Of a stretch of 64,000 nt of DNA, positions 22,125 to 36,087 are shown piece by piece. The position numbers and the translations under genes were made by a program. Within the stretch, counting starts at the first letter, position 1, and every line of letters starts with the position of its first letter. The stretch is from positions 124,001 through 188,000 of the forward strand of contig CAKZLE010000034.1 in the NCBI GenBank assembly GCA_937125225.1, given 5' to 3'. The notes under the pieces are model-generated. The model searched no databases and had not been told where the DNA came from. It saw only the letters and a program-made list of their open reading frames with translations. The DNA is from an uncultured Spirochaetia bacterium (GTDB lineage Bacteria > Spirochaetota > Spirochaetia > CAKZLE01).

Positions 22125-22800
22125 TCATAGCACCGTTCCATCCCTGAACATCACTTGGATATCCACCTTCCCATACACCGTGATGTGATCAACCAATATC
22201 AGGAACTGATCAATATCAAACTCTGTGATCATAATTTCCGTCTCTTTCATCAACCTGCAGAATCGCTTAATGACCATACCCTGTTGTTTCTTATGTTCTA
22301 CCCGTGATGATATCTCCTGAAGCTTCTGCTGGATCTCCTGATACCTACTAGCAAGCTCATCATACTCATTTACACCTGCCCCGCCAGATGAGAACACCTG
22401 AGCACTCAGGCTCTTCTGCATCATCTCAGATAGCACTACCATTTCACGCTCAGGGGGTCGCTGCTATTTCTCTATTCCAAAGGTATCACTTCCCCTCAAG
22501 AGCATCTTTCCCATACGATCTATCACTGCATCCTTGTTTTCAAAGAGCTTATTCACCGCTTTCAGGTAGATTGCTTTCAACTCCTCTTCCCTCAAGTGCG
22601 GGGTACTGCATTTCTCCTCTCCCCCAAACTTCTGATTGCACTGCCAGATGGTAGTCCGGTACTTATCATTCGAATACCAGACCTTCGTTCCATAGAAGGA
22701 GCCACACTTCACCTTCCCCGAGAATATCCCTGTACTATAATGACGGGTCTTCTTATCAGAAGGCTGCTTTAGTTTCTGCTGCACCAATGAAACTACTGAT
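22125..22800 (-). pseudogene. Broken large serine recombinase (C-terminal half only)
   Basis: On the minus strand this is collinear with the C-terminal part of the recombinase at 34909-36087, from LVQQKLKQPSDKKTRHYSTGIFSG to FRDGT. It is dead for three visible reasons: the catalytic domain and most of the recombinase domain are missing, and homology stops abruptly near 22800; three residues containing a zinc-ribbon cysteine pair are deleted (KVKCGSFYG against MVKCGDCGSFYG); and an in-frame TAG at about 22464 splits the coiled-coil region. With the other copy, in opposite orientation, it brackets the island 22.8-34.9 kb. Confidence 0.85.
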
Positions 22801-22909
22801 TGACATGTATAAAACACCAAAATATTCAGACCCACAAAATTACAGAAAGATTCCTTTGGGAAAAGGTGATTCGAAACCTGAATAATTAGGTATGTGCTTG
22901 TAGGGATAC

Positions 22910-22933: not shown

Positions 22934-23108
22934 AGACAGGTACAGAAAATTTGAGAAAAACACCTTCATCCCCGAAACCACTATCTCTTTTCTTCACTAG
23001 ATCAATTAAAAAATCTAGCATAGTCTTTCCATGATCTACCGATATCCAACTTGCTATTAGTCCCCACATGAGCGTACATACACATACCAAAATCAAGGAG
23101 ATTATTGT

Positions 23109-23270
23109 ATGAGTAAGGATTGGACGAAAGAGGAGCTGGATCAGGTCAGTAAGGCCATGATCAAAAATGGCCATATGGGATATGAGGAATTATGTGAGTT
23201 GCTCGGGAACGGGGTATTAGCGGTCGAGAGCTCGGAGCTGGAAAATGATAGTAAGGAGGAACAAGCATGA
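23109..23270 (+). CDS. Small conserved protein (53 aa) of mobile elements
   Basis: ATG at 23109, preceded by AAGGAG at a good distance, encodes 53 residues beginning MSKDWTKEELDQVSKAMIKN with GHMGYEELCELLGN following. Small acidic proteins with a WT-EEL...GHM-YEE pattern occur in mobile islands of clostridia and related bacteria, from memory, with unknown function. Its stop overlaps the ATG of the next gene (ATGA), which strongly supports translation of both. Confidence 0.65.
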   Translation: MSKDWTKEELDQVSKAMIKNGHMGYEELCELLGNGVLAVESSELENDSKEEQA

Positions 23271-23917
23271 AGATGATCATCCCGTACAACGTCACCGGTA
23301 AAAAACGAAAGAAGCTCGCTGATGATATCTCAGAAGCACTACACACCTTACCGAAGTATATGATGTACCCCACCTGCAACTACGAGATCGGAGACTGTAT
23401 CCTAGACAGGAACGGGAAACTCACCATTCCAGAAAATCTGGAGGATACCACCGTGAAAGCTCTACTCGAGCATCTGAAGGATCGTGGCTACCAGAGTACT
23501 GGAGTTGAGGATATTGACAAGTTTACTATCAGCCTACCGAGGAAAAATTTCACTGAAAGACAGCTAGAGATGCTGGTGCAGATGGTCAGGGCAAAGGAAG
23601 GTTTGTTCAAACGTACCTTCCTCACAGATTCAGTTGATGTAATGACCACAGCCGACTGTGTATGCTTCCCCTGGTTCACCCTTACCGATGATCCTACTGA
23701 GGCGGAAGCCTATACCTCCTTCATCTCCAAACTCTCAGAGATGGCTTGCCGGCAAAAGCGCGTACTATCAACTCCCTCTGATGGTGATAATGATAAGTAT
23801 GCTATGCGGTGCTACCTGCTCAGGCTGGGGTTCATCGGAGAGCAGTATAAAAGATCGAGGGCTATACTACTTAAAAACCTGAGTGGGAACTCTGCATTTA
23901 GGTTCTCTAAGTCCTAG
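23267..23917 (+). CDS. Conserved protein of the 'virulence-related protein' family
   Basis: A 216-residue cytoplasmic protein. The C-terminal part (KYAMRCYLLRLGFIGEQYK, then ILLKNLSGNSAFRF) and the middle PWF-containing segment (CVCFPWFTLTDDPTEAEAYTSFISKLSEMA) match a family annotated 'virulence-related protein' in clostridial mobile elements. The name has no known biochemical basis. Two similar halves may exist: the N-terminal NYEIGDCILDRNGKL part and a second LPRKNFTERQLEMLVQMV part. Translationally coupled to the 53-residue protein. It lies inside the mobile island, so it was probably acquired horizontally. Confidence 0.7.
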   Translation: MKMIIPYNVTGKKRKKLADDISEALHTLPKYMMYPTCNYEIGDCILDRNGKLTIPENLEDTTVKALLEHLKDRGYQSTGVEDIDKFTISLPRKNFTERQLEMLVQMVRAKEGLFKRTFLTDSVDVMTTADCVCFPWFTLTDDPTEAEAYTSFISKLSEMACRQKRVLSTPSDGDNDKYAMRCYLLRLGFIGEQYKRSRAILLKNLSGNSAFRFSKS

Positions 23918-24043
23918 ACCAGAAGGTATATCAGTATTTTTCGATTTGTGAAGAAAATTGAAAAGAATATTTGTAATACATTAACCAAAAAGTTGAACAT
24001 AGATTTATCTTACTGCAATACTCTGAGGCTTGAAAGAACCGGG

Positions 24044-24065
24044 GTGAATTATGCCACACCACGGG
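24044..24065 (+). repeat. Short dispersed motif (GAATTATGCMACACCACGGG), copy 1
   Basis: A 22-base element also present with few changes at 49695-49719 and 51177-51200. A shorter relative in reverse orientation lies at 63121-63138, just beyond the transposase gene at the right edge. It is therefore probably the terminal part of an IS481-like element left behind without its transposase. Confidence 0.5.
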
Positions 24066-24083
24066 TATCAAGAATGGTTAGGG

Positions 24084-24188
24084 CTAACCATCTCTCACTT
24101 TTAATACTATATGGATCTCCCCATGTATCATTAGTTTTAACTCACGAAACATCCTGTATAGGATCTCTTTTCCTTTCTCTATGGTCAT
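24084..24188 (-). CDS. Possible 34-residue ORF coupled to the excisionase-like gene
   Basis: ATG at 24188 overlaps the stop of the HTH gene (ATGA) and gives MTIEKGKEILYRMFRELKLM and 14 more residues before TAG at 24084. The overlap suggests translation, but the product is short and unlike anything I know, and the frame ends inside a small palindrome (TGGTTAGGGCTAACCA, 24075-24090). It could equally be the beginning of a longer gene that has been cut. Confidence 0.3.
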   Translation of the reverse strand: MTIEKGKEILYRMFRELKLMIHGEIHIVLKVRDG

Positions 24189-24415
24189 CTTCGAGCCTTC
24201 TGTGTTGATTTCTCAATAAATGCATCGATATGCTCTTGTTTAAACCTTACAGCGCTTGCAATCTTAATGTAGCTAATCTTCCCATAACAAACCCATTGTC
24301 GAAGAGTTTGTGCTTTTACCCCCAATATCTCTGCTGCCTCCTTATAGGTCATTAGATAGATAGTGGTATTCAATTCCTTAATAATTTCTCTGAGTTCCTG
24401 TAATTGTTCATTCAT
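24185..24415 (-). CDS. Excisionase-like HTH (helix-turn-helix 17) DNA-binding protein
   Basis: A 76-residue protein with a MerR-like winged helix of the Xis/HTH_17 class: MTYKEAAEILGVKAQTLRQWVCYGKISYIKIASAVRFKQEHIDAFIE. The frame is open upstream, but the ATG at 24415 stands behind a perfect AAGGAGG and is chosen. Small proteins of this type direct excision by integrases or regulate element genes. It is divergent from a second gene of the same type at 24645. Confidence 0.75.
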   Translation of the reverse strand: MNEQLQELREIIKELNTTIYLMTYKEAAEILGVKAQTLRQWVCYGKISYIKIASAVRFKQEHIDAFIEKSTQKARR

Positions 24416-24644
24416 TGATGAACCTCCTTGTAATTTAGTGTTCTTAACAGAACATTTTAACAAAGATTTTATGTGAGAAAAGGAATTATCAACAACTCTC
24501 ATCTGCTAAATAAATGGGGTTCTCATACAATAAGTTTTAGAAGTAGAAAAGAAAGACTCTAAATTTATGAATTAATACCTAGTCTCCTCTGATTCTATAT
24601 GACAGGGGGAACTGAAATGGTTAGATTTGATACAGGAGATTCTT

Positions 24645-24851
24645 ATGTTAAATGATATAAAGCCTTTATTAACAGTAAAAGAAGTAGCAGTAATATTGAA
24701 TATTGCTGAAAAGACAGTACGAAAGTATGTATGGGAGAAGACTATTCCCTATTCGAAAATTAATGGGCATATCCGTTTTGAACAAGAAAGATTAGCCGCA
24801 TGGATAAAAGAACGGCAAATCCCAACAATCCAGGAAATACTTGGTAGATAG
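24645..24851 (+). CDS. Excisionase-like HTH DNA-binding protein
   Basis: A 68-residue protein with the same fold as the divergent neighbour: LLTVKEVAVILNIAEKTVRKYVWEKTIPYSKINGHIRFEQERLAAWI. The ATG at 24645 is six bases after CAGGAG; an in-frame TTG at 24627 overlaps that ribosome binding site and is rejected. The two genes are clearly diverged in sequence, so they are not a recent duplication. Probably an element-encoded directionality factor or regulator. Confidence 0.7.
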   Translation: MLNDIKPLLTVKEVAVILNIAEKTVRKYVWEKTIPYSKINGHIRFEQERLAAWIKERQIPTIQEILGR

Positions 24852-24976
24852 ATACTATTGGATGAATTATTAGATTGAGTTAATCACTAATCATCTATTT
24901 ATTACCATATTTATAAGGTTATATCTGTATAATTACTCAGATATAGATTGTATTATTTTATATATATGATAAGATA

Positions 24977-25420
24977 ATGAATATGAAACTACAAGCAATA
25001 TTAAAAGCATTTTTCCCAGACCAACAAAGTAATAATAGGGATCACAGTACTGGTTCAAACGCTACCGAACCAATTGCAAAAGAATATGTTACTGATAAAT
25101 GTATTCTTATAAGAATAAACCAAACTTATTCATCTAATATGACAGAAGACCAAATATATGAAGTTACGAGAAAATCATGGGTTTTAGATCCCTACAGAGC
25201 TAATGATGCTCACTATGTTATGGCAATAAATCATGGAATCTGTGTTGGAGTATATTTAATTTTTGAATGGAAATTTACTAAAGAAATGAACAACCGAAGG
25301 CGGTATGAGTTTATTGGAGAACCAGCTGAGCCAGCAATAATGGATAAGTACTATAGCCAGAACTTTGAAAGTTTCTGGAGTCGCGGTGCTGCTAATCCTA
25401 TAACTTATGTTAATTGTTAA
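24977..25420 (+). CDS. Conserved hypothetical protein, possible PUA/EVE-like nucleic-acid-binding fold
   Basis: A 147-residue protein with no signal or membrane segment. The C-terminal two thirds run KCILIRINQTYSSNMTEDQIYEVTRKSW, INHGICVGVYLIFEW, RRRYEFIGEPAEP and SRGAANPITYVN. This order resembles a domain I recall in bacterial accessory proteins that ends in an 'NPI-YVN' motif and looks like a PUA/ASCH-type barrel; the assignment is tentative. The first ~35 residues are a polar linker. The gene is very AT-rich, like its two neighbours, and lies in the mobile island. There is no strong ribosome binding site, and the ATG at 24983 is an alternative start. Confidence 0.45.
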   Translation: MNMKLQAILKAFFPDQQSNNRDHSTGSNATEPIAKEYVTDKCILIRINQTYSSNMTEDQIYEVTRKSWVLDPYRANDAHYVMAINHGICVGVYLIFEWKFTKEMNNRRRYEFIGEPAEPAIMDKYYSQNFESFWSRGAANPITYVNC

Positions 25421-25499
25421 CGATAAAACACATATATAAATATATGCCTATTAATGATAAGGTATTTACCTTTGATGCTATAGAAAATAAGGAATATCA

Positions 25500-26348
25500 A
25501 TGAAACAGATAGATACTTTTTTTCCTGAAGAATTTTCAAGGGTCAGCCTTAATAATAATTATATTACTCCTACAAATCCTCAAAACTATATCTACCATTA
25601 TACCAATATTAGTTGCATTCTTAGTATTCTCAGGAATCGTGAAATTTGGTTAATGGACCAATCAACACTAAATGATTCTGCAGAAGGGACATTGTTATCC
25701 AACAAAGTTATAGAAATGTTTGCTACCAAAAAAGATAAAAATATACTTTCCCAAATGTTCGATATAATTAAGACAAATACTTTTGTTTCATCGTTTTCAA
25801 CTTTTGGGAATTTACTTAGCCAATGGCGCTGTTATGGAGATATTTCTATAGGATTTCAATTCCACGAGATGAAATATAATTCCCATATGATTGAAGATTC
25901 AAAGCAAACAAATCATTTAACTTCTGGATTTCAATTCTCTCCTTGCCAATATGCTACAACTAGAATTATTGAGGAAGAAGCTATAGCTTTGAAAAAGTAT
26001 TTTAAGCAGTATTTACGAACATTTAAAAATGAGGACAATAGAGGACAACAACATGCACTTTTAACAATAGGACAATGGTTATTTACAACAAAGCATGCTG
26101 GATTTTTTGAAGAAAGTGAAATTAGAGGATTGTATTATTTGTATCAATGCAGTCCTTTTACATCGCCAACAGGTAAAAATTATCTTAAGTATAAGATAGC
26201 ACCTGAAATGGTAAAACGGATTACAGTAGGCCCCAGTACTAATCATTCTGATAATGCCCAACAAATAACAGATTATATTTCAGATAATCCTGAATACAAT
26301 CATTTAGAAATATATGAAAGCACTATTCCATATATAGATAAGGTTTAA
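25500..26348 (+). CDS. DUF2971 family protein
   Basis: A 282-residue cytoplasmic protein of the DUF2971 family. The diagnostic opening is YIYHYTNISCILSILRNREIWLMDQSTLND followed by a glutamate (AEGT). The middle TFVSSFSTFGNLLSQWRCYGDISIGFQF matches the 'FS---d-L-QWr-Yg---G--i-F' core. An aromatic-rich stretch near YKIAPEMVKRITVGPS follows. DUF2971 proteins have no established activity; their distribution in islands has led to suggestions of a toxin-like or defence role. The ATG follows AAGGA. Two bases separate it from the DUF6338 gene, so the two are probably cotranscribed. Confidence 0.75.
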   Translation: MKQIDTFFPEEFSRVSLNNNYITPTNPQNYIYHYTNISCILSILRNREIWLMDQSTLNDSAEGTLLSNKVIEMFATKKDKNILSQMFDIIKTNTFVSSFSTFGNLLSQWRCYGDISIGFQFHEMKYNSHMIEDSKQTNHLTSGFQFSPCQYATTRIIEEEAIALKKYFKQYLRTFKNEDNRGQQHALLTIGQWLFTTKHAGFFEESEIRGLYYLYQCSPFTSPTGKNYLKYKIAPEMVKRITVGPSTNHSDNAQQITDYISDNPEYNHLEIYESTIPYIDKV

Positions 26349-26350
26349 AG

Positions 26351-27001
26351 ATGGATATAAATGAGTTTATTTTTCAAATTATAATTTTACTTACACCGGG
26401 TTCTCTTTCTCTATTTATAATAAAACGATTCACTACACATAGAAGGGAATCAAAAGTAATTTCAAGTTTCAATGACCTACTAGCAATCATTATCTTAACT
26501 TTCATTAGTTGTATAGTGCTAGATATAATCATGTTTGAGTTTCTACCTGCCTATTACATTTCTTCAACTAAAAAAATGCTAACGAACTCTACATACTCTT
26601 ATATTGAATTTACATATCTATTATGTATTAGTTCAATTATGGGGATAATATCTTCTATATATATCGAAAAAAAATTAGATTTTAAACTTTTAAAATGGCT
26701 TCATATATCAAACCATTTTGGAGAAGATGATGTTTGGCTACACTTTAATCAAATATCAAAAGGGAATTGGGTCAATATACGAGACCATAAACTGGATTTA
26801 ATCTACTGTGGGTATATAGAACAATACTCTGACCCAGGAGAAATTAGAGAGTTATTAATCAGCGACGTTACTGTTTATTCAAATATAAAAAATAGTGATT
26901 TTAAATCATATTGTATCCCAAAACTTTATCTATCAAGAAATTTTGATGATTTTACAATAGAATTTATTAAAATGGAGAAAACAGATGTCAAAAAGGAATA
27001 G
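26351..27001 (+). CDS. DUF6338-like membrane protein
   Basis: A 216-residue protein with two to three hydrophobic segments in the first half: FIFQIIILLTPGSLSLFII with the PG typical of the family at the first segment, a second around LLAIIILTFISCIVLDIIM, and a third around YLLCISSIMGIISSIYI. The cytoplasmic C-terminal half contains DVWLHFNQISKGNWVNIRDH and a beta-rich domain ending near SRNFDDFTIEFIKM. This resembles DUF6338 proteins, whose function is unknown and which are frequent in accessory regions. Its stop codon overlaps a small downstream frame. Confidence 0.6.
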   Translation: MDINEFIFQIIILLTPGSLSLFIIKRFTTHRRESKVISSFNDLLAIIILTFISCIVLDIIMFEFLPAYYISSTKKMLTNSTYSYIEFTYLLCISSIMGIISSIYIEKKLDFKLLKWLHISNHFGEDDVWLHFNQISKGNWVNIRDHKLDLIYCGYIEQYSDPGEIRELLISDVTVYSNIKNSDFKSYCIPKLYLSRNFDDFTIEFIKMEKTDVKKE

Positions 27002-27098
27002 CCAAGGACAAAACGAAGAACAAGTTAGATCAGGAAATAATGGCGGATCAAGACCTTCTACAACAAAACCGACACAACCTCCCCCTACCCAGAAATAG
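26985..27098 (+). CDS. Small proline-tailed protein (37 aa) downstream of DUF6338 gene
   Basis: ATG at 26985 lies within the end of the DUF6338 gene, eight bases after GGAG, and encodes 37 residues beginning MSKRNSQGQNEEQVRSGNNG and ending TTKPTQPPPTQK. The Gly/Ser/Thr-rich, proline-tailed composition and the coupled position resemble small partners I recall behind DUF6338 genes. Function is unknown. It is too short to be certain, but overlap, ribosome binding site and composition all agree. Confidence 0.5.
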   Translation: MSKRNSQGQNEEQVRSGNNGGSRPSTTKPTQPPPTQK

Positions 27099-27130
27099 AA
27101 CAATTTTAAGTTATAAATAATAATTAATCA

Positions 27131-27655
27131 TTATTTTATATAGTTATAAACAGTCATCCTAGATACCCCGAGCTTATTAGCAATCCAAGTCTTAAACTTA
27201 CCGATAGCTATATACCCCTCTAACTCACCTTTATACGTATCAAGCTTCTTAATTACTACCTGACCTTTCTAACGACCGAGCTTCACACCTTGACGCTTTC
27301 GCTCAGCAAGAGCTTCCTTGTTTCTCATCTGGATATTAGATACTTCCCTCTCACATAATGCTGATAACACAGAAATAAACATCTTTGTAGCTGGAGTCAT
27401 ATCAGAATTGATTACTAATCCTTCTTTTACTAAATGCAAGGTTGTATCTGAACTCTGAATGATTTCAATAATTTCATTAGTTGCTTTGTAGATCTACTCA
27501 ATCTTGAAAGCTCAGGAACGATTATATCAGTGACTTCACTATCCATTATAACTGAATAGATAGCTCATTGCTTCCAATCGATTTTACGACCTGAAATATT
27601 TTCTTCGATGTGGCCTACATTACCTAACTGTTTATATGAAGCATATGACTCTATA
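27131..27655 (-). pseudogene. Decayed small serine recombinase (resolvase/invertase)
   Basis: Minus-strand translation in two frames gives IVPELSRLSRST, then after a shift TNEIIEIIQSSDTTLHLV, FISVLSALCEREVSNIQMRN and KEALAERKRQGVKLGR, a TAG where resolvases have the GRKKG hinge, and a C-terminal HTH (WIANKLGVSRMTVYNYIK). Traces of the N-terminus (YASYKQLGN, SGRKIDW) run up to the IS3-family element at 27659, which probably removed the start. At least one frameshift and two stops make it inactive. Confidence 0.75.
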
Positions 27656-27711
27656 TAATGGACCTATAAATGAAGACAGAATTTTGAAAAAAATAAGCTA
27701 TACTAAAGAGT

Positions 27712-28005
27712 ATGGAGAAACGAAATAAGTATTCAGCAGAATTCAAGACCAAAGTAGTGTTAGAGGTACTTCGGGAAGAAGAAACCGTCAATCAACTTGC
27801 AGCACGATATGAACTGAGTCCTCAGTTAGTTGGGCATTGGAAACGAGAGTTTATAGAACATGCCTCCGAGGTGTTCACCAGGAAGCAAAGTGCTGAGCGA
27901 AAATTGAAGAAAGAGCTTGAAGAGAAAGAAGAGAACTACCAGAAGATCGTTGGCCAATTAACCTATGAGATTGATTGGTTGAAAAAAAAATCTGGCCTCA
28001 AATAA
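27712..28005 (+). CDS. IS3-family transposase OrfA
   Basis: A 97-residue DNA-binding protein. The HTH is in YSAEFKTKVVLEVLREEETVNQLAARYELSPQLVGHWKREF; a leucine-zipper-like coiled coil follows (about residues 55-92). The end of the gene carries nine consecutive adenines (27982-27990) in the lysine codons of DWLKKK, a slippery run where OrfA and OrfB can be joined. Confidence 0.85.
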   Translation: MEKRNKYSAEFKTKVVLEVLREEETVNQLAARYELSPQLVGHWKREFIEHASEVFTRKQSAERKLKKELEEKEENYQKIVGQLTYEIDWLKKKSGLK

Positions 28006-28027
28006 CACGTATATAGAACGAATAGCG

Positions 28028-28861
28028 ATGTATGAATCAGGCAATCTGACGCTTTCAGTAACGCGTCAGACAGAGCTGCTGACTATTCAACGAACCAGCG
28101 TGTATCGGAAGCCAAAAGAACTCTCTCAGAGAGATTTAGAGAATATTCAGATCATGCATAGAATCGATGAGATTTATACGGCTCATCCATTCTATGGATA
28201 TCGAAGAATTCACGTGATATTGAGTAGCGAGTGTGAGATAGGAAAGAACAAAGTATTGTCTCTGATGCAGAAAATGGGCATTTATGCGATATACCCTAAG
28301 AGGAACTTGAGTAAGCTGTATCAGAAACAATTTATCCACCCATACCTGTTGAGGAACCTGAAGTTCAGTCATGTGAATCAAGTTTGGGCTATAGATATCA
28401 GCTATATTCGTATGGGTGTAGGGTTCATGTACCTGTTTGCGATCATTGATATCTACAGCAGATATCTTGTGGCCTTTGAGCTTTCTAGTACGCTTGAGAA
28501 AGAGTTTGTGATGAGATGCTTGAAGCGAGCTTATCTGCATGCAAAACCAGAGATTCAGAATTCTGATCAGGGTGGACATTTTACCAATGAGACTTATGTT
28601 CAGCTAGTGAAATCAACCGGTATTCGAATCTCTATGGATAGTAAAGGGAGAGCGTTAGACAACATCTATATCGAACGATTCTTTCGTAGTTTGAAGTATG
28701 AAGAGGTTTATTTGAATGAGTATGATTCACCGAGATCTTTGAGAAGATCTCTTGCTGAATATATTGATTTCTATAACTATGAGCGGCCTCATCAATCATT
28801 AGGATATCGTACTCCTGGAGAGGTATATCACCAGGATGATCTATATACAAAACAGGCATAA
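28028..28861 (+). CDS. IS3-family transposase OrfB (DDE integrase core)
   Basis: A 277-residue catalytic part. HTH_21 is in the first third (YGYRRIHVILSSECEIGKNKVLSLMQKMGI). The DDE triad is visible as AIDISYIRMG, QNSDQGGHFTNE and DNIYIERFFRSLKYEEVY. The frame stays open upstream of the ATG to the A9 run, reading KKNLASNNTYIERIAMYESG, so the natural product is probably an OrfAB fusion made by slippage. The relation of the two frames is +1 (or -2), not the classical -1. Confidence 0.85.
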   Translation: MYESGNLTLSVTRQTELLTIQRTSVYRKPKELSQRDLENIQIMHRIDEIYTAHPFYGYRRIHVILSSECEIGKNKVLSLMQKMGIYAIYPKRNLSKLYQKQFIHPYLLRNLKFSHVNQVWAIDISYIRMGVGFMYLFAIIDIYSRYLVAFELSSTLEKEFVMRCLKRAYLHAKPEIQNSDQGGHFTNETYVQLVKSTGIRISMDSKGRALDNIYIERFFRSLKYEEVYLNEYDSPRSLRRSLAEYIDFYNYERPHQSLGYRTPGEVYHQDDLYTKQA

Positions 28862-29128
28862 ATAGTAGGAGGAAGAGTCTTAGCTTTTCTGATTTTCTGT
28901 CTTGACAACTAGGTCCACCTTACTACCTCATACTTAAATTTGTTAGATTTAAGGAATTGATTCCATGGTACTTTGGTAGAATTATGGGAAGGGGGGTCTT
29001 AATCTCTAGAAGATCTTTACTTACAACGTGCAGGGGCCATCACGCAGAAAAATGCCTATTCAAAGGGGGGATTGACCCCTCATTTAATGGGTGTTAGTGA
29101 GTGATTCGATAGGTTTGAATTCTGAACT

Positions 29129-29470
29129 TTAATCAAAGAAATCAATGGCTTTCGGCATGGTATCAGTTTCAATAGCAGGCATAAAATCGCTGTACAGTAC
29201 AGGTTTTCCAAAGCTTGAGTCATCTTTTAATGTGCTCAAGAAAAGGGTTGTCTTGTCGTTCATGAACCACACATCGTTCACCCGGTATTCTCCCTTCAGT
29301 GAGAGATAGCGGTTAGTGACATTGGCATAGGTTGGAGAAGATCCTGTGAGAGCCTCCTGTGCCCCTGCTGAGGCATGCAATAGGCCTGTGGGCATCATAA
29401 CCGCCTGTTCTTGTAATAAACGCGCTGTCCTTGGACTTTGCAAAGAGCCGGTAGCCAGTACCCATAGCAT
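29129..29470 (-). pseudogene. Remnant of an HK97-fold phage major capsid protein
   Basis: The 113-residue minus-strand frame reads PTGLLHASAGAQE, then NRYLSLKGEYRVNDVWFMND, LFLSTLKDDSS, GKPVLYSDFMPAIE and TMPKAIDFFD. This order (P-GLL, then W-MN, then L-DSS, G-PV, MP-I--D) is the C-terminal signature of HK97-type major capsid proteins. It lacks the N-terminal delta domain and E-loop, and residues between DSS and GKP appear deleted. The flanking frame at 29313-29504 suggests an additional frameshift. It lies beyond the candidate origin of the primase-containing island. In 28918-29128 I see no gene. Confidence 0.6.
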
Positions 29471-29522
29471 TGAGGCTCCTCGATTGATTCATAGATTTTT
29501 GCATGTCCTAGAAGGTGAGCAG

Positions 29523-29826
29523 TTAGTGACTCTAGTGAATGTTAGGTGAATGTTCTTTCTCCAACTATCACTAGAATTATATATTATCCTGAAAGGAGTT
29601 AAGTCCATTTAGTGACAGTAGTGATAGTTGAAACCAACTCCATACATCATCTTTTCTATCCTTGTACCCGCTGTACAGTAAGTACAAACATAGTTTTTTT
29701 TATCCTCTGAGTTGAAAGTACTGTCACTACTATCACTAAATGATGATAATTACTTGTGTGGGCAAGAATAATTCTAGTGATAGTACTCATGAGTACTTTC
29801 ACTACACATTCACTACTATCACTAAG
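29523..29826. repeat. Iteron-like repeat cluster (TAGTGAYAGT), candidate replication origin
   Basis: The motif TAGTGA(T/C)AGT or its complement occurs repeatedly: ACTATCACTA at 29564, two tandem copies in TTTAGTGACAGTAGTGATAG (from 29608), TACTGTCACTACTATCACTA (from 29719), TAGTGATAGT (29775) and a final copy at 29813-29823. The cluster follows the stop of the primase-helicase gene. In phage satellites the origin recognised by the Rep protein lies just downstream of rep as iterons, so this is a good origin candidate. A perfect palindrome lies inside it. Confidence 0.55.
29775..29804. repeat. 30-bp palindrome inside the iteron cluster
   Basis: The core AGTACTCATGAGTACT (29782-29797) is a perfect 16-bp palindrome. 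Outside it TAGTGA and TCACTA pair as well, with one mismatched base pair between, giving near-perfect symmetry over 30 bp. It is not GC-rich and has no T-run, so a protein-binding or origin-melting role is more likely than termination. Confidence 0.6.
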
Positions 29827-32149
29827 TAAGGAATTCTGAGTCATCATAACCATACTCCACTGCATACTCGCTCTTTGCAATATCACTGAGGGTGAAGTCT
29901 TTATAGAAGTTACCGCCCTTCCCATATCTGACAGTCATCTCCTGAAAGGTGGAGCCAAGGTGGGATGCTAGATTCTCACGAAATTCTCGTGCTGTCTTTG
30001 CAAACCCGTTGTTGTTATCCTTGCACCATGCCTTGTAGACCTTATAGACCTTACCCGTAGTGCACATGTCCTTGATCTTCCCCTCTGGCCTTTTGATTAT
30101 GCATTCTTCGTAAAATGCGATGGCTGTATTGTTGGTATGTCGATATACACGTCTAGCTTCAATCACTTCATCAGGTTCGGTGAAACGATATCCGTTATCT
30201 ATCACACCTTTGAAGGCGCTCACCGCCTGGAAGATGATCCCCTCACGCTCTGCATAGAGCTTGTCTAAAAGTTGCTTGTCCTGTTGTGCTAGGGGTATGA
30301 CATTATCACAGGGAATACAAATGATACGATCGTATACCCATGTGCCATCATCACCTCCAAACTTTGGCAGGCGGTTCATGCAGAACCACAGCAGTCCGTT
30401 ATACACAAACTCAAATCCATTCATGCCCTTAAACTCAGCGAACAGACTGTCTCCCCCTGTGCATTTCTTGAAGGTTTTCAATTCACTGACAGTTACATAG
30501 CTCATGTCAGAGCTTCCTGCTAAACGTCTTCCGTAGAGGGTGCTCGTACCAAAGCGGGCTTCAATCTCAGCTAGATCGATACCGATGAAGTTCCCTCTAC
30601 CTACAATACGCTCAGCAAGGCTTTTGAGTACTGACTTTCCGGTGTTACCATCACCATGGAGAAATAGTGCCTTCTTCATCCTCCATCCCTTGATATTGGA
30701 AATAACTGCACCGAGGAATTCAAGCAGAAGTCTTTTTCGCCCCTCATCTCCGCTTGTGAGCGTATCAAGGTATCGGTCGAACTCTGGTGTCGGGGTGGGG
30801 TTGGCATTCCATTTACAGGGGATTTGTATCGTTGATCGGTAGTCAGTAGCGTGTGGATATAAGGGCTCATCCAGTTCCTCTTCGAGGTTCAGCATCCCAT
30901 TGGTGAAATTAATCAGGTGCTCATGATAGTTCAAGTCACTGATAGTGAGGGTGCTTAGATCGGTGATGAGGTGTTGCAGGGCATCATTCACTTGCCCCAG
31001 TTTAACCAGTTCCTCATCGTATGCTGCAATGAATCCTTTTATGATTCCTTTGCACATGTCATCTGAGAACAATTGGTAGCAACCATCTTGATATATATAC
31101 TTAAGCGTACCACCGGTCGCGCTGTCACGAACGATCAAATATTCAAGATTCTCTCTGCAGTAGCGAGCCAATAACGGTACCGAGACATGGGGTATTCCCT
31201 CTGGGGTGAACTTAATGAAAACAGGAGCTGGCATAACTGAGCGATGGAATACACCATTACAAGCCTCAATGGCTGCGGTGATCGTAAGCTCTCGATAATC
31301 CTCACGTTCCCATTTCTCTCGCATCAGAGCACCCTGTCGGAAGATCTCATCAATTAACTGCGGGTCATTCCCAGTCTTGAAAGCGATAAGTGCACAGAGA
31401 GCACAGTCTGCAGCAGAGTCATCGTCACTATAAAAGCTAATATCCCCCTGATCAAAAAGGGTGGTAAACTTGTCACCGTTCTTCTGCTTGCGAAGTGACT
31501 GGATGATCTGGTCAGCCTTTATATTCCCATCTCGTTTGGTGCTATACTTCTTTTTGGCCTTTCGACGCATATCCTTGTCCAAGGTGGTGAGGATGGCCTG
31601 AGTACAATCCCGAAGTGGTTTATCCTCAATATGGTTCTCGGTAAATACAGCAAATCGGTTAGTCAGATCTCCCATATACAGCTCTAGATTGTTGTGGGGA
31701 TTCTTCATGTAGAACTGACGGTCGAGTTTCATGCTTCCCTTCTCATTCCTTTGAGTTGGGATCTGGGAAAGATCATAGGTACCGTAGATGTGGATACCCT
31801 CAGTACTGACTGAATACTCCACGTAGGAGTCAAAGCGTCTCAGGAGAGTTTGCACAAATGGATCGTCAATATTCTTATGATCAACATCAAGAAAGAACAT
31901 GCCATCAGGTATCCTAAACCCAAGGCCACTGAAGCTCTTATCCTCAACTGCTGCCTTTGCATCATCATAGGTCACCCAAGAGCCTGAGAACTTGTTATCA
32001 GTACCGCAGGAAGATCCTGTGATCGTACAGGGAACTTTAGTGGTATTACCGCCTCTTTTCACATAATTCCAGCAGAACCAGATACGTTGTGATTTCAGCT
32101 CCTGCATCGTGATTTCTCGTGTTGACGTCTTCGCAAGAGCTTTTACCAT
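29822..32149 (-). CDS. Phage/satellite primase-helicase (D5/P4 type)
   Basis: A 775-residue replication protein. The N-terminal part (residues ~15-190) is a primase-polymerase-like domain with RIWFCWNYVKRGGNTTKVP, SWVTYDDAKAA and GLGFRIPDGMFFLDVDH, whose DVDH acidic motif is the probable metal site. The C-terminal half is a D5-type superfamily 3 helicase, with Walker A in FLHGDGNTGKSVLKSL and a sensor-like LLWFCMNRLPKFGGDDGTW. A D5 C-terminal winged helix follows. The ATG overlaps the end of the preceding small gene. Such proteins initiate replication of phages, satellites and plasmids. No inactivating change is seen. Confidence 0.85.
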   Translation of the reverse strand: MVKALAKTSTREITMQELKSQRIWFCWNYVKRGGNTTKVPCTITGSSCGTDNKFSGSWVTYDDAKAAVEDKSFSGLGFRIPDGMFFLDVDHKNIDDPFVQTLLRRFDSYVEYSVSTEGIHIYGTYDLSQIPTQRNEKGSMKLDRQFYMKNPHNNLELYMGDLTNRFAVFTENHIEDKPLRDCTQAILTTLDKDMRRKAKKKYSTKRDGNIKADQIIQSLRKQKNGDKFTTLFDQGDISFYSDDDSAADCALCALIAFKTGNDPQLIDEIFRQGALMREKWEREDYRELTITAAIEACNGVFHRSVMPAPVFIKFTPEGIPHVSVPLLARYCRENLEYLIVRDSATGGTLKYIYQDGCYQLFSDDMCKGIIKGFIAAYDEELVKLGQVNDALQHLITDLSTLTISDLNYHEHLINFTNGMLNLEEELDEPLYPHATDYRSTIQIPCKWNANPTPTPEFDRYLDTLTSGDEGRKRLLLEFLGAVISNIKGWRMKKALFLHGDGNTGKSVLKSLAERIVGRGNFIGIDLAEIEARFGTSTLYGRRLAGSSDMSYVTVSELKTFKKCTGGDSLFAEFKGMNGFEFVYNGLLWFCMNRLPKFGGDDGTWVYDRIICIPCDNVIPLAQQDKQLLDKLYAEREGIIFQAVSAFKGVIDNGYRFTEPDEVIEARRVYRHTNNTAIAFYEECIIKRPEGKIKDMCTTGKVYKVYKAWCKDNNNGFAKTAREFRENLASHLGSTFQEMTVRYGKGGNFYKDFTLSDIAKSEYAVEYGYDDSEFLT

Positions 32150-32364
32150 ATGGGATCATCCTTAGTTGTTACATCGACTGATAGACCATCTAGGGCCATG
32201 CACAGCTTGTCATAGTTGATCAGTGCTTTTTTACCTATATAGATTGCCGGCAACTTGCCTGCCTTGAGTAATAACCGTAATGCATGCTCGGGTAACAACC
32301 CTGTTGCGGCTACTTCACGGATGCTCATCATCTTAGGTGGTGGGTTCTTTCTATTCATATCCAA
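32143..32364 (-). CDS. Small helix-turn-helix (excisionase/AlpA-like) protein
   Basis: A 73-residue DNA-binding protein: MMSIREVAATGLLPEHALRLLLKAGKLPAIYIGKKALINYDKL is an HTH_17-like winged helix as in excisionases. It overlaps the primase start by seven bases and follows the 53-residue gene by nine. In a satellite-type layout this position is taken by the excisionase. Confidence 0.65.
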   Translation of the reverse strand: MDMNRKNPPPKMMSIREVAATGLLPEHALRLLLKAGKLPAIYIGKKALINYDKLCMALDGLSVDVTTKDDPIW

Positions 32365-32373
32365 TCTGACCTC

Positions 32374-32535
32374 CTATTGCTGATCCTGATTGTTTGCCTC
32401 AGCGTTCTGGAGGACTTTTTTACGCCAGTAATTCTCATTGTGGCGTTTGACTTTGTCTGGATTATTCTTACGCCAATTCCGATAATAGGTGCGACGTTCA
32501 CTTGCTATCGCATCCTTGATTTCTTTTTCTGTCAT
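32374..32535 (-). CDS. Small basic phage-type protein (53 aa)
   Basis: The ATG at 32535 stands behind CAAGGAG; a longer open frame upstream runs through the promoter region and is rejected. The 53 residues (MTEKEIKDAIASERRTYYRN then WRKNNPDKVKRHNENYWRKK and a polar tail) show the 'Y---WR--NPEKVK---E-YW-KK' pattern of small phage and island proteins of unknown function. It is the first gene of the leftward transcript. Confidence 0.6.
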   Translation of the reverse strand: MTEKEIKDAIASERRTYYRNWRKNNPDKVKRHNENYWRKKVLQNAEANNQDQQ

Positions 32536-32580
32536 GCTGCAACTCCTTGGGAAAGTTTCTATTTCGCTTAATTTTCTCTT

Positions 32581-32597
32581 GTAAAACTTCGTTTTAC
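32581..32597. promoter_or_regulatory. Putative repressor operator in divergent interval
   Basis: GTAAAAC-TTC-GTTTTAC is a perfect 7-bp-arm inverted repeat located between the divergent leftward genes (start 32535) and the repressor gene (start 32696). A symmetrical site at this position is what a Cro/CI- or Stl-like repressor would use. The assignment to the XRE protein at 32696 is inference. Confidence 0.5.
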
Positions 32598-32695
32598 TTG
32601 ATAGTATAAATCTAGCACAAGAGATAAGAAACATCAATAAAAACGAAATAGTAAATATAGAGTACAAGTAATTCGTAAATCAAGGATGTAAGAAC

Positions 32696-33250
32696 ATGAC
32701 AATACAAGAAGGAACACTAGCCTGGGAATTTCCTACAATTCTGCGGGAACTGCTAGAGAAGCACCCTAAGACGGGGAATAGAACAACGTTGAAAGAACTG
32801 GGCGAGGCTGTGGGTACTAGACAGCAAAGCATCAGTTTGTACAGGAATGGGGACACTCAACCATCTCCTGATATCCTTATTAAGATTGCTGCATTCTTCG
32901 GGGTATCAGTGGATTATCTGCTCACCGGTATCAGTAGTGAGAATAGAGCGGTTCATGAGCAATTAGGGCTTTCTGAGCAATCAATCGACCTGCTAAAAGT
33001 AGCTAAGAATTATCCTGACACGCTGGGTGTTATTGATGAACTACTTTCCGATGGGGAATTCTATACGTTCATACAGGACATCGGTGATAAAGCGAGAACT
33101 CTTAAATCCATGATGCAGGGTGATACTCCAAAAGTATCAGACGGTCTCAACAGATTGGGATATTTCCGATGGGATCTGCACACATATATCCAGGACTTCA
33201 TACAGCGGGAATTGGACAAGAGAGACTTAGGTATTGAGTCTAATTGCTAG
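32696..33250 (+). CDS. XRE-family (Cro/CI-type) repressor
   Basis: A 184-residue protein with an N-terminal HTH (TTLKELGEAVGTRQQSISLYRNGDTQPSPDILIKIAAFFGVSVDYLLTG, about residues 28-77) and a C-terminal part rich in charged helices without a LexA-type Ser-Lys protease motif. It therefore does not look self-cleaving, and if it is a lysogeny-type repressor it would need another release signal, such as a helper protein as in Stl-type repressors. Divergent from the replication genes and followed by the integrase on the same strand. Confidence 0.8.
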   Translation: MTIQEGTLAWEFPTILRELLEKHPKTGNRTTLKELGEAVGTRQQSISLYRNGDTQPSPDILIKIAAFFGVSVDYLLTGISSENRAVHEQLGLSEQSIDLLKVAKNYPDTLGVIDELLSDGEFYTFIQDIGDKARTLKSMMQGDTPKVSDGLNRLGYFRWDLHTYIQDFIQRELDKRDLGIESNC

Positions 33251-33336
33251 ATCCTGCTGGATTGGGTTGACTCCAGGGCACTTTGAAGGGATGTATGGTA
33301 CATAAGAACAGTTTACTTATAAGGGGATAAAACAGC

Positions 33337-34701
33337 ATGCCAAGCATCAACAAACGAGGGAACACCTATAGGATTATGGTTTCTCTAGGGTATGATCTAA
33401 ATGGGCGGCAAATCCGCAAGACCACAACCTTTACACCTCCAAAGGAGGTGACTGAAGGAAAGGGTGCAAAACTCGCAAAGGCCTATGCCTATGAATTTGA
33501 AAAACACTGTCAGGGTATGACAAACCTTAATGAGAACCTACGATTCTCAGAACTTCAGAAGTGGTATTATGAGCAGATTGCCATTCATAAACTCAAGCCT
33601 CCTACTTATGCAAATAACCGGTATATGATCAATATGTATGTGATGCCATATATTGGACATCTGAAGCTCAAAGATATCAACACGGCTAAGATTGATAAGC
33701 TTTTCAATGAGTTGTTTCAAAACGGCCGGAAGATGGAGAAATTCTGGCTCAAGGATAATGAGACACTGGGTTATGGAACTCACCGATCTGTTTCGCGCAG
33801 GACGGGGATATGCATGAACACGCTTCAGCGTCTAACCGCTGGGGAATCTATTACCAGACGTACAGCCCAGAAGATTGCAGATGCCCTGGGGAAGAATTTA
33901 CACGAGTTATTTAAACCACAACAAATTGATAAGGGACTTGATGTTGGTACTGTCAAAAGAATCCGAACAGCGCTTTCCCCTATTTTTTCTACTGCTGTCA
34001 AAAAAGAGCTTCTGGCAAAGAATCCAGTAACCAACGCTACCACACCATCTCATGGTTCTGAAAAACAGAAAGAGTTCCTTGATGCTGAGCAATGCAGAGA
34101 GTTGTTAGGTTTTATCAATGAGCTGAATAATCCTCAGCTGAGCCGATTGATAAAGATGCTACTATTTACGGGGATGCGTGTGAATGAGCTTACGGCTCTT
34201 CACTGGGAAGATGTCGACTTAGATAAAGCTGCCATTTCTGTCAAGCGCAATTTGTATTATCTGGATGGAGAATATCACATCACTACACCCAAGACCAAAA
34301 GTAGTGTGCGGTGGATCACTCTACCACCTCAGGTGGTCCAGCTTCTCAAGGAGCAAAAGGAGTGGCAGTTAAAAAGAAAGATAGATGTTGGTGACAAATG
34401 GATAGATCGAGGAACAGTGTTCACTGGCATGTTTGGCCAGTTCATGAACAGCCACTACATCAATCTGCAGTTCAAGCGTCTGCTTGACAAGCATAATTTC
34501 CCTGATGTCCATATTCACGATTTACGCCATGCCAATGCTTCACTACTGATTAACATGGGTGTACCTGTGAAGGTGATATCGGAACATCTGGGGCACAAGG
34601 ACACAAGAGTTACAGAGAATATATATGCTCATATCTTCAATGCAACCATGTCGCAAGCCTCTGATGCCATCAGCAAAGCTCTTAGCGATGTGGGTATCTG
34701 A
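33337..34701 (+). CDS. Tyrosine-type phage integrase with an inserted XRE-like HTH
   Basis: A 454-residue integrase. An N-terminal AP2-like arm-binding domain (MPSINKRGNTYRIMVSLGYD) is followed by a SAM-like core-binding domain (FSELQKWYYEQIAIHKLKPPTYANN). Within it, at residues ~145-200, an XRE-like HTH is inserted (SRRTGICMNTLQRLTAGESITRRTAQKIADALGKNLHELF). The catalytic domain shows TGMRVNELTALHWED, HDLRHANASLLINMG, HLGHKDTRVTENIYAH, thus the R...H-x-x-R...H...Y set. Preceded by TAAGGGGAT. The 3' end lies at one presumed end of the island. Confidence 0.88.
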   Translation: MPSINKRGNTYRIMVSLGYDLNGRQIRKTTTFTPPKEVTEGKGAKLAKAYAYEFEKHCQGMTNLNENLRFSELQKWYYEQIAIHKLKPPTYANNRYMINMYVMPYIGHLKLKDINTAKIDKLFNELFQNGRKMEKFWLKDNETLGYGTHRSVSRRTGICMNTLQRLTAGESITRRTAQKIADALGKNLHELFKPQQIDKGLDVGTVKRIRTALSPIFSTAVKKELLAKNPVTNATTPSHGSEKQKEFLDAEQCRELLGFINELNNPQLSRLIKMLLFTGMRVNELTALHWEDVDLDKAAISVKRNLYYLDGEYHITTPKTKSSVRWITLPPQVVQLLKEQKEWQLKRKIDVGDKWIDRGTVFTGMFGQFMNSHYINLQFKRLLDKHNFPDVHIHDLRHANASLLINMGVPVKVISEHLGHKDTRVTENIYAHIFNATMSQASDAISKALSDVGI

Positions 34702-34769: not shown

Positions 34770-34791
34770 ATCTGGTGTTTATCTGGTGTTT
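34770..34791 (+). repeat. Tandem 11-bp repeat beyond the integrase gene
   Basis: ATCTGGTGTTT is present twice in direct tandem about 70 bp after the integrase stop. Short direct repeats beside an integrase gene are typical arm-type binding sites next to an attachment site. The attachment core itself could not be identified because no second copy was recognised at the other end. Confidence 0.4.
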
Positions 34792-34908: not shown

Positions 34909-36087
34909 TTTGAGAAAGAAAATATTTACACTTTTGATAGTAAGGGAGAAATGTTATTAACCATTATGAGTTCTCTTGCTCAGGAAGAGTCACGCTCGAT
35001 ATCAGAGAATGTTACCTGGGGCGTGAGGAAACGATTCTCAGATGGAAAGGTATCGGTCCCCTACAGATCCTTCCTAGGTTATGAGAAAGGTCCTGATGGG
35101 AATCTGGCAGTGAATGAAGAAGAGGCAAAGATCATACGGTTCATCTATGGAGCAAGCCTTATGGGGAAGTCTCCATTCACCATTGCAAAAGAGTTGACCC
35201 GTAAAGGGATCCCGACTCCCAGAGGGAAGAGAGAGTGGGGACAGACTACGATCATCAGTATCCTCTCCAATGAGAAGTATACGGGGAATGCGATCCTGCA
35301 GAAGACCTATACTCCTGACTTCCTCACGAAGAAGCGAAAGGTCAATCATGGGGAGATTCCCAAGTATTATGTGGAGCATAGTCATGAGGGGATAATCTCT
35401 CAGGAACAGTTCGATCTGGTACAGCAGAGACTGAAGCAGCCCTCTGGTAAGAAGACCCGTCATTACAGTACCGGGATCTTCTCCGGTATGGTGAAGTGTG
35501 GAGACTGTGGATCCTTCTATGGATCGAAGGTCTGGCACTCGAATGATAAGTACCGGACTACCATCTGGCAGTGCAACCAGAAGTTCAGGGCAGAGAAGAA
35601 ATGCCGTACCCCGCACCTGAGAGAAGAGGAGTTGATCCAGGTCTATCTGAAAGCGGTCAACAAGCTTTTTGAGAACAGGGATGCAGTGATCAGCCGGTTG
35701 GAGAAGATGCTCCTGAAGAATAGTGATACCTCTGAAGTTGAGAAAGAGCAGCGATCCCTTGAACGTGAGCTGGTAGTGTTATCAGAGATGATGCAGAAGA
35801 GCCTGAGTGCTCCGATATTCTCAGCTGGTGGGAATGATGCTAATGATTATGATGAGCTTGCAGATCGGTATCAGGAGATCGGGCAGAGATTACAGGAGAT
35901 ATCACTGGCGGTAGAACGGAAGAAACAGCAGACAACAGCCATCAAGCGATTCTGTAAGTTTATGAAAGAGACTGGTGAGGTGATCACAGAGTTCGATATT
36001 GAGCAGTTCTTCATCCTCGTTGATCATATGACGGTGTATGGGAAGGGGGATGTGAGATTGACGTTCAGGGATGGGGCGGAACTATAG
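34909..36087 (+). pseudogene. Large serine recombinase lacking its catalytic domain
   Basis: Homology starts abruptly at FEKENIYTFDSKGE, which in intact proteins lies just past the catalytic domain, so the active-site serine region is gone. From there the gene is intact: the linker LLTIMSSLAQEESRSISENV, the Recombinase domain (LGYEKGPDGNLAVNEEEAKIIRFIYGASLMG, then ILSNEKYTGNAIL), the zinc ribbon (VKCGDCGSFYG...WQCNQKF...C), a coiled coil and the C-terminal FDIEQFFILVDHMTVYGKG. An ATG at 34951 could give 378 residues of DNA-binding protein. Truncation at the integrase-side junction suggests the satellite-like island entered or deleted this gene. Homologous to 22125-22800. Confidence 0.8.

Follow-up and report, generated by a model that had tools for sequence, protein, structure and literature searches.

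A probable decayed copy of a cos-type, capsid-bearing phage satellite in an uncultured Spirochaetia bacterium

The window, that is, the whole stretch of 64,000 nucleotides analysed here, comes from an uncultured Spirochaetia bacterium. A first-pass annotation had described, at 29129-34701, a cluster with the gene order of a phage-inducible chromosomal island (PICI) and had taken it for a degraded or minimal satellite. Each of the features listed there is present where it had been placed, and the features of the locus are given below. L013 denotes the related locus of Sphaerochaeta sp. S2, L006, L035 and L160 are other related loci, and prophage A is a complete prophage on contig C3 of the window's own genome.

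22125-22835, minus strand: large serine recombinase, C-terminal remnant on the left flank (recombinase zinc-ribbon domain, 8e-7)
23109-23270, plus strand: short ORF, homolog of the start of the DUF7698 protein of L013 (blastn and alignments)
23267-23917, plus strand: conserved satellite ORF of 216 aa, unassigned product (71% DNA identity to L013; dN/dS 0.08)
23918-28984, unstranded: later insert of about 5 kb that splits the satellite between the capsid end and the distal ORFs (missing from L013 and L035)
24185-24502, minus strand: HTH gene like that of prophage A, within the insert
24977-25420, plus strand: PD-T4-3-like fragment, within the insert
25500-26348, plus strand: weak match to the defence candidate PDC-S31, within the insert
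27269-27439, minus strand: resolvase fragment, within the insert
27712-28861, plus strand: IS3-type element, within the insert
28992-29075, plus strand: putative cos (packaging) site, common to the window and the resident prophage (nhmmer with a phage-only model, E = 5e-9)
29129-29504, minus strand: HK97-type major capsid protein pseudogene (PF05065, 5e-7; phrog_10, 3e-8)
29523-29832, unstranded: iteron array TCACTA/TAGTGA, presumed replication origin, directly 3' of the primase gene
29822-32149, minus strand: P4/D5-type primase-helicase, 775 aa, intact (phrog_1829, 4e-113; TIGR01613 P4-type primase, 4.5e-44)
32143-32364, minus strand: small HTH protein of 73 aa, excisionase/AlpA-like (TIGR01764, E = 0.007, weak; 73% identity in L013)
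32374-32667, minus strand: basic protein of 97 aa, kept in the tyrosine-integrase type (identity 54% in L013, 51% in L160)
32696-33250, plus strand: Cro/CI-type repressor, Stl-like by position (HTH_3, 9e-12; 73-74% identity to L013)
33337-34701, plus strand: tyrosine integrase (PF00589 Phage_integrase, 1e-25; identity 78% to L013 and 66% to L006)
34773-34791, plus strand: doubled integrase arm-type repeat TGGTGTTTATCTGGTGTTT (sole match in the window, 0.08 expected)
34909-34916, plus strand: attachment core TTTGAGAA at the integrase end, in the FEK codons of the target gene (junction alignment)
34951-36087, plus strand: interrupted large serine recombinase (the target), C-terminal part (PF07508, 9e-24; phrog_95 integrase from profile position 206)

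The repressor and the integrase lie on one strand and the basic protein, the small HTH protein and the primase diverge from them; the open reading frames and domain matches bear out this arrangement, and the integrase and repressor genes are likewise divergent from the xis-like and primase genes in L013, L006 and L160. All three of integrase, repressor and primase are intact, and their identity to the counterparts in Sphaerochaeta sp. S2 is 73-78%, with pN of 0.14-0.16 and pS of about 0.8 (primase: 73% identity, pN 0.16, pS 0.81). Since pN is far below pS between the window and L013, these three genes were under purifying selection. The small HTH gene reported as excisionase-like is present and conserved in L013, but its likeness to an excisionase is weak. 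The motif TCACTA/TAGTGA occurs in 11 copies in 29501-29835 and at most twice in other 335-bp stretches of the window (sampled in 25-bp steps), in agreement with the iteron-like repeats noted directly after the primase. Candidate origin-type repeats stand directly 3' of the replication gene in the relatives as well, where arrays occupy the equivalent position with drifting motifs.

The capsid piece at 29129-29470 (minus strand) is, as had been proposed, of the HK97 type. It is a frameshifted pseudogene that corresponds to residues 71-86 and 147-254 of a 312-aa homolog, intact in L013, and its C-terminus is gone. The satellite capsids are 32-44% identical to that of prophage A over residues ~90-399; their ORFs begin about 15 aa ahead of the stretch that pairs with residue ~90 of the latter, and the match to TIGR01554 (385 positions) sets in only at position 85. 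From the late starts and this match it follows that the satellite capsid family is without the delta (scaffold) domain, which is required for self-assembly in HK97. An AlphaFold model of a satellite capsid (pLDDT 84) has a predicted fold like those of the RcGTA, cf-PICI EcCI2 and HK97 capsids; RcGTA is the best fold match, and the Foldseek E value against the EcCI2 capsid (PDB 9gyi) is 6e-16.

A conserved zinc-ribbon protein of about 100 aa, compared between loci by eye, is encoded directly before the capsid gene, sometimes in two copies (L013:8795-9175, L022:12686-12997 and other loci). Loci without this gene have another small ORF just before the capsid gene (L160:12508-12828, L007:13475-14077), which could encode a scaffold or size factor.

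A primase scan of 84,980 species genomes gave 42 loci; with viral contigs added, the satellite-like set came to 69 loci, some of which overlap on one contig. The gene order that had been suggested as a search target in related genomes was found with an intact capsid gene in L013, L006, L007 and L160. L013 has the order of the window followed by iterons, a zinc-ribbon ORF and the capsid gene; L006 and L007 have int, repressor, xis, pri, a P27-type TerS and the capsid gene; L160 has the same gene order. Many Clostridia and one Selenomonas carry pri, zinc ribbon and capsid, followed by a serine recombinase. The order pri–(zinc ribbon or TerS)–capsid among the 69 satellite-like loci extends over Clostridia, Negativicutes and Spirochaetes; the zinc-ribbon gene is present in 38 of the 69, TerS in eight (L006, L007 and L014 among them), and both together in none. 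The TerS of L006 is 58% identical to that of prophage A. High-identity relatives of the integrase were confined, among 247 spirochaete genomes, to the window's own. The family is widespread and apparently undescribed. In the open-access papers searched, phage satellites of spirochaetes were not found.

Matches to TerL, portal, protease, tail-tube or tape-measure genes were found by tblastn in 0/69 satellite-like loci, with proteins of prophage A, prophage B and phage L021 as queries, which more divergent genes may escape. The screen itself works, since full phages (L021 and others) were detected in the same searches. The earlier remark that no terminase or packaging gene is visible stands for genes; it does not for the packaging site, as a putative cos is present.

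This site was named from its conservation and its position beside TerS. Window positions 29003-29084 are 81% identical over 83 bp to the DNA directly upstream of the TerS gene of prophage A, where the putative cos of that prophage lies. The cos profile was built from full phages only, namely prophage A, the prophage that harbours L160, and five TerS-bearing phage contigs. It also matches L013 (5e-10), L035, L160 and most of the satellites, and gives no match at E < 10 on reversed sequences. The threshold of E < 0.05 is missed by 20 of the 69 loci, mostly fragments or TerS-carrying types; the matches in L006 and L007 are weak (E 0.04-0.08). In the five phage contigs (L152, L153, L155, L156 and L157) cos lies just before TerS and the primase is 55-56% identical to that of the satellite; an A-type TerL is seen in four of them within the contig piece examined, and the fifth is cut short.

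The window's own genome has two complete HK97-type siphoprophages, of which prophage A is one, and three copies of cos: in the window, at the TerS of prophage A, and in another pri–serine-recombinase element. The latter, a remnant of satellite or phage type (G000 contig C34:107000-114000; L052:7070-14105), lies 41 kb upstream of the window element. It has a 786-aa D5-type primase, two serine recombinases and no capsid gene, stands beside type I restriction-modification genes, and its cos copy is 86% identical to that of the window.

The second satellite-bearing spirochaete (G225) also has an A-type prophage with cos at TerS. The two prophages are 69-85% identical across TerS, TerL, portal and capsid (TerL 82%, capsid 80%). 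An A-type TerL is present in five of 393 spirochaete genomes, in four at >=82% identity, and both sampled satellite carriers are among them; by a hand calculation the chance of this coincidence is about 8e-5. In the further satellite genomes, A-type TerL occurs at >=72% identity in four of nine. Syntrophomonas wolfei and Clostridium sp. C105KSO13 are cultured examples in which an intact relative and a prophage of the A type are found together. The genome of L013 has no A-type TerL, only a broken match of 32%. On these co-occurrences and the common cos, siphophages like prophage A are likely helpers of the window satellite.

Members with a tyrosine integrase lie within a large serine recombinase gene, and the integrase-end junctions of the window, L006, L007, L013, L082, L148 and L160 all fall at its FEK codons. 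The DNA homology of the window to SR2, a serine recombinase gene of prophage A, begins at the core (34909), and the recombinase in the window lacks its catalytic N-terminus. The truncated gene was considered as a gene of the satellite and dropped: L006 and L007 agree at about 93% as far as the core and diverge beyond it, so the recombinase is a target and not a passenger.

The complete case is L160, in which 14,315 bp stand between 8-bp cores (TTCGAGAA), with the N-terminal and C-terminal parts of the recombinase on opposite sides; when the flanks are joined, a recombinase of 556 aa results, which aligns nearly end to end with SR2 of prophage A. The element sits inside SR2, the integrase gene of a complete prophage in G358 (67-kb contig), where SR2 follows SR1 and an amidase gene. 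This prophage is related to prophage A (identity of TerL 73%, portal 64%, protease 56%, capsid 67%), in which SR2 is intact and has the same core, TTTGAGAA, as the window copy. The first-pass annotation had named the finding of the cluster as part of a full-length prophage in relatives as evidence against a satellite. The five genes were not found as a unit of a prophage's own genome, and the case of L160 in G358 is an insertion with a duplicated core. As read from these junctions, the family uses integration genes of other mobile elements as insertion sites, in the one complete case that of a virus of the helper kind.

In the L160 element the doubled arm repeat is found close to each end, and the window retains the integrase-end copy only. 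For the window copy the attachment site at the far end is not recognisable, the arm-repeat pattern being at the integrase end alone. An 8-mer TTTGAGAA near 22950 is not claimed as this site, as neither a recombinase N-terminus nor arm repeats flank it. The far flank of L013 shows no recombinase N-terminus on its contig and no long match among 148 genomes of the same class.

The genes noted earlier at 29129-34701 are there, but the element is longer. It takes in the putative cos and, beyond the insert of about 5 kb, a distal part at 23109-23917; its right end is at about 34909, within the truncated serine recombinase gene. The conserved part ends at about 23109, since the homology that links the window with L013 and L035 breaks off just ahead of this position. 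A distant homolog of the 216-aa ORF sits between cos and TerS of the prophage that harbours L160. The left-flank recombinase remnant is 80% identical in DNA over 669 bp to 34951-36087 (protein 74%, one stop), inverted relative to that copy, and begins further downstream than the core. The window element is flanked by two C-terminal serine recombinase remnants in inverted orientation, each bordering host genes.

The window very probably holds a cos-type phage satellite in decayed form, which has kept its own integration and replication genes, and the earlier reading of a satellite that is degraded and has the gene order of a PICI is supported: the order recurs with an intact capsid gene and without other detected morphogenesis genes, and the window has the cos of a resident prophage. 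Readable from the sequences themselves are the gene order, the lack of other detected morphogenesis genes, the common putative cos and the delta-less capsid of the relatives, together with the insertion in a serine recombinase gene, the 8-bp core and the reading frame that can be restored (L160). From these we infer induction by a helper, packaging, and a role of the capsid protein.

Most of the PICI features that can be read from sequence (PMC6092414) are present. The PICI size of about 15 kb agrees with the 14,315 bp of L160, the window copy being rearranged. A helper-type packaging signal or terS is represented by the cos of the window and the TerS of L006, L007 and L014, and the confinement of structural genes to capsid morphogenesis and terS agrees with the structural-gene screen. 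A reading that is compatible with a decayed satellite and goes further would place the element within the Gram-positive PICI family itself, as a SaPI homolog in a new host. Gene order, origin position, the options of TerS or capsid, the cos strategy, the size of L160 and the co-residence with a helper prophage all match published PICI features (PMC6092414, PMC8569155); however, the attachment site is found in genes of mobile elements, and many relatives have a serine recombinase in place of Int. Such membership is conceivable but on the doubtful side.

Among cos-type SaPIs with a capsid homolog, SaPIbov5 is alike in its helper-type cos and an HK97-family homolog of the helper's capsid, Ccm, a protein of 355 aa with the delta domain at residues 1-87 (PMC8569155). 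In contrast, the capsids here are of about 311 aa and lack this domain, and the hosts are Clostridia, Negativicutes and spirochaetes. The helper-embedded HE-PICIs of Enterobacterales sit in late genes, at 14 sites (PMC10111431). L160 resembles them in its place in a gene of a helper-type prophage, its tyrosine integrase and its own capsid gene; its target, however, is the large serine integrase gene and not a late gene, and an insertion there would keep the helper from excising before the satellite has gone. The embedded position is seen for L160 in G358 and is not demonstrable for the window copy. Gram-negative PICIs (EcCICFT073, PmCI172), of whose reference elements 21/29 have a major capsid gene (PMC6092414, PMC10111431), have in common with the present family int, a regulator, a primase, an origin after the primase and, in many members, the capsid gene. 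They differ in that here a CI/Cro-type repressor diverges from xis, as in Gram-positive PICIs, a zinc-ribbon protein stands beside the capsid, and the helpers are others. The cf-PICI EcCI2 is alike in its satellite-encoded HK97-fold capsid, while the satellites here encode a capsid, and sometimes TerS, only. The cf-PICIs have a complete module for head formation and packaging.

The primase family bears on whether the window could instead hold the remnant of an ordinary temperate phage that has lost most of its structural genes. It had been proposed beforehand that a primase belonging only to ordinary phages would speak against a satellite; the family is in fact common to satellites and full phages, with 55-56% identity on the A-type-TerL contigs L152, L153, L156 and L157 and 44% in L021, and the primase alone is therefore no satellite marker. 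The capsid, TerS and cos families are common to phages too. Such a remnant is nevertheless improbable: the minimal order, with a capsid and only a zinc ribbon or TerS, recurs in dozens of loci from three phyla or classes, L160 forms a whole of 14.3 kb whose two ends are both established, and the delta domain is missing across the satellite capsids. A self-packaging or gene-transfer-agent-like element, with the capsid alone for a host function and the primase for plasmid-like replication, is hardly credible, for although RcGTA provides the best fold match and single-capsid elements resemble encapsulin-like recruitment, the phage cos is conserved in most members and TerS in some, neither a portal nor a terminase ATPase is found, and the delta domain that HK97 needs for self-assembly is missing.

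If the element is a cos-type satellite, a helper phage would relieve the repressor (32696), and the integrase with the xis-like factor would excise the element from its place in the large serine recombinase gene. The primase would then start replication at the iterons, and the helper terminase would recognise the satellite copy of the helper cos and package the satellite DNA into helper-built particles. The delta-less HK97-type capsid protein may join or poison the assembly of the helper capsid, as does Ccm of SaPIbov5. Because its capsid gene and distal end are lost, the window copy could probably at best be mobilised if the capsid function were provided in trans.

The position in the integrase gene of a helper suggests that helper excision may have to wait for the exit of the satellite. 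A more general proposal may be made, to which we give somewhat less than even weight: cos-type satellites across Bacillota and Spirochaetota would use the helper's large serine integrase gene as the attachment site, satellite excision would gate helper induction as an active-lysogeny lock, and the delta-less capsid would then commandeer head assembly. No account of a satellite in a prophage serine integrase gene was found in the open-access papers searched.

The family extends capsid-bearing phage satellites to Clostridia, Negativicutes and spirochaetes. It offers a test of how a capsid protein without a scaffold domain redirects helper heads, and of what a satellite gains from a position within the integrase gene of its helper. 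The cos model, together with the pri–zinc-ribbon–capsid signature, provides a means of listing such satellites in gut and sediment genomes.

Defence-like genes, including restriction-modification genes, lie near several of the satellites (L148:12497-17868, L035:13710-18168, L015:5834-8230 and window 24977-26348), a trait that is frequent in known satellites.
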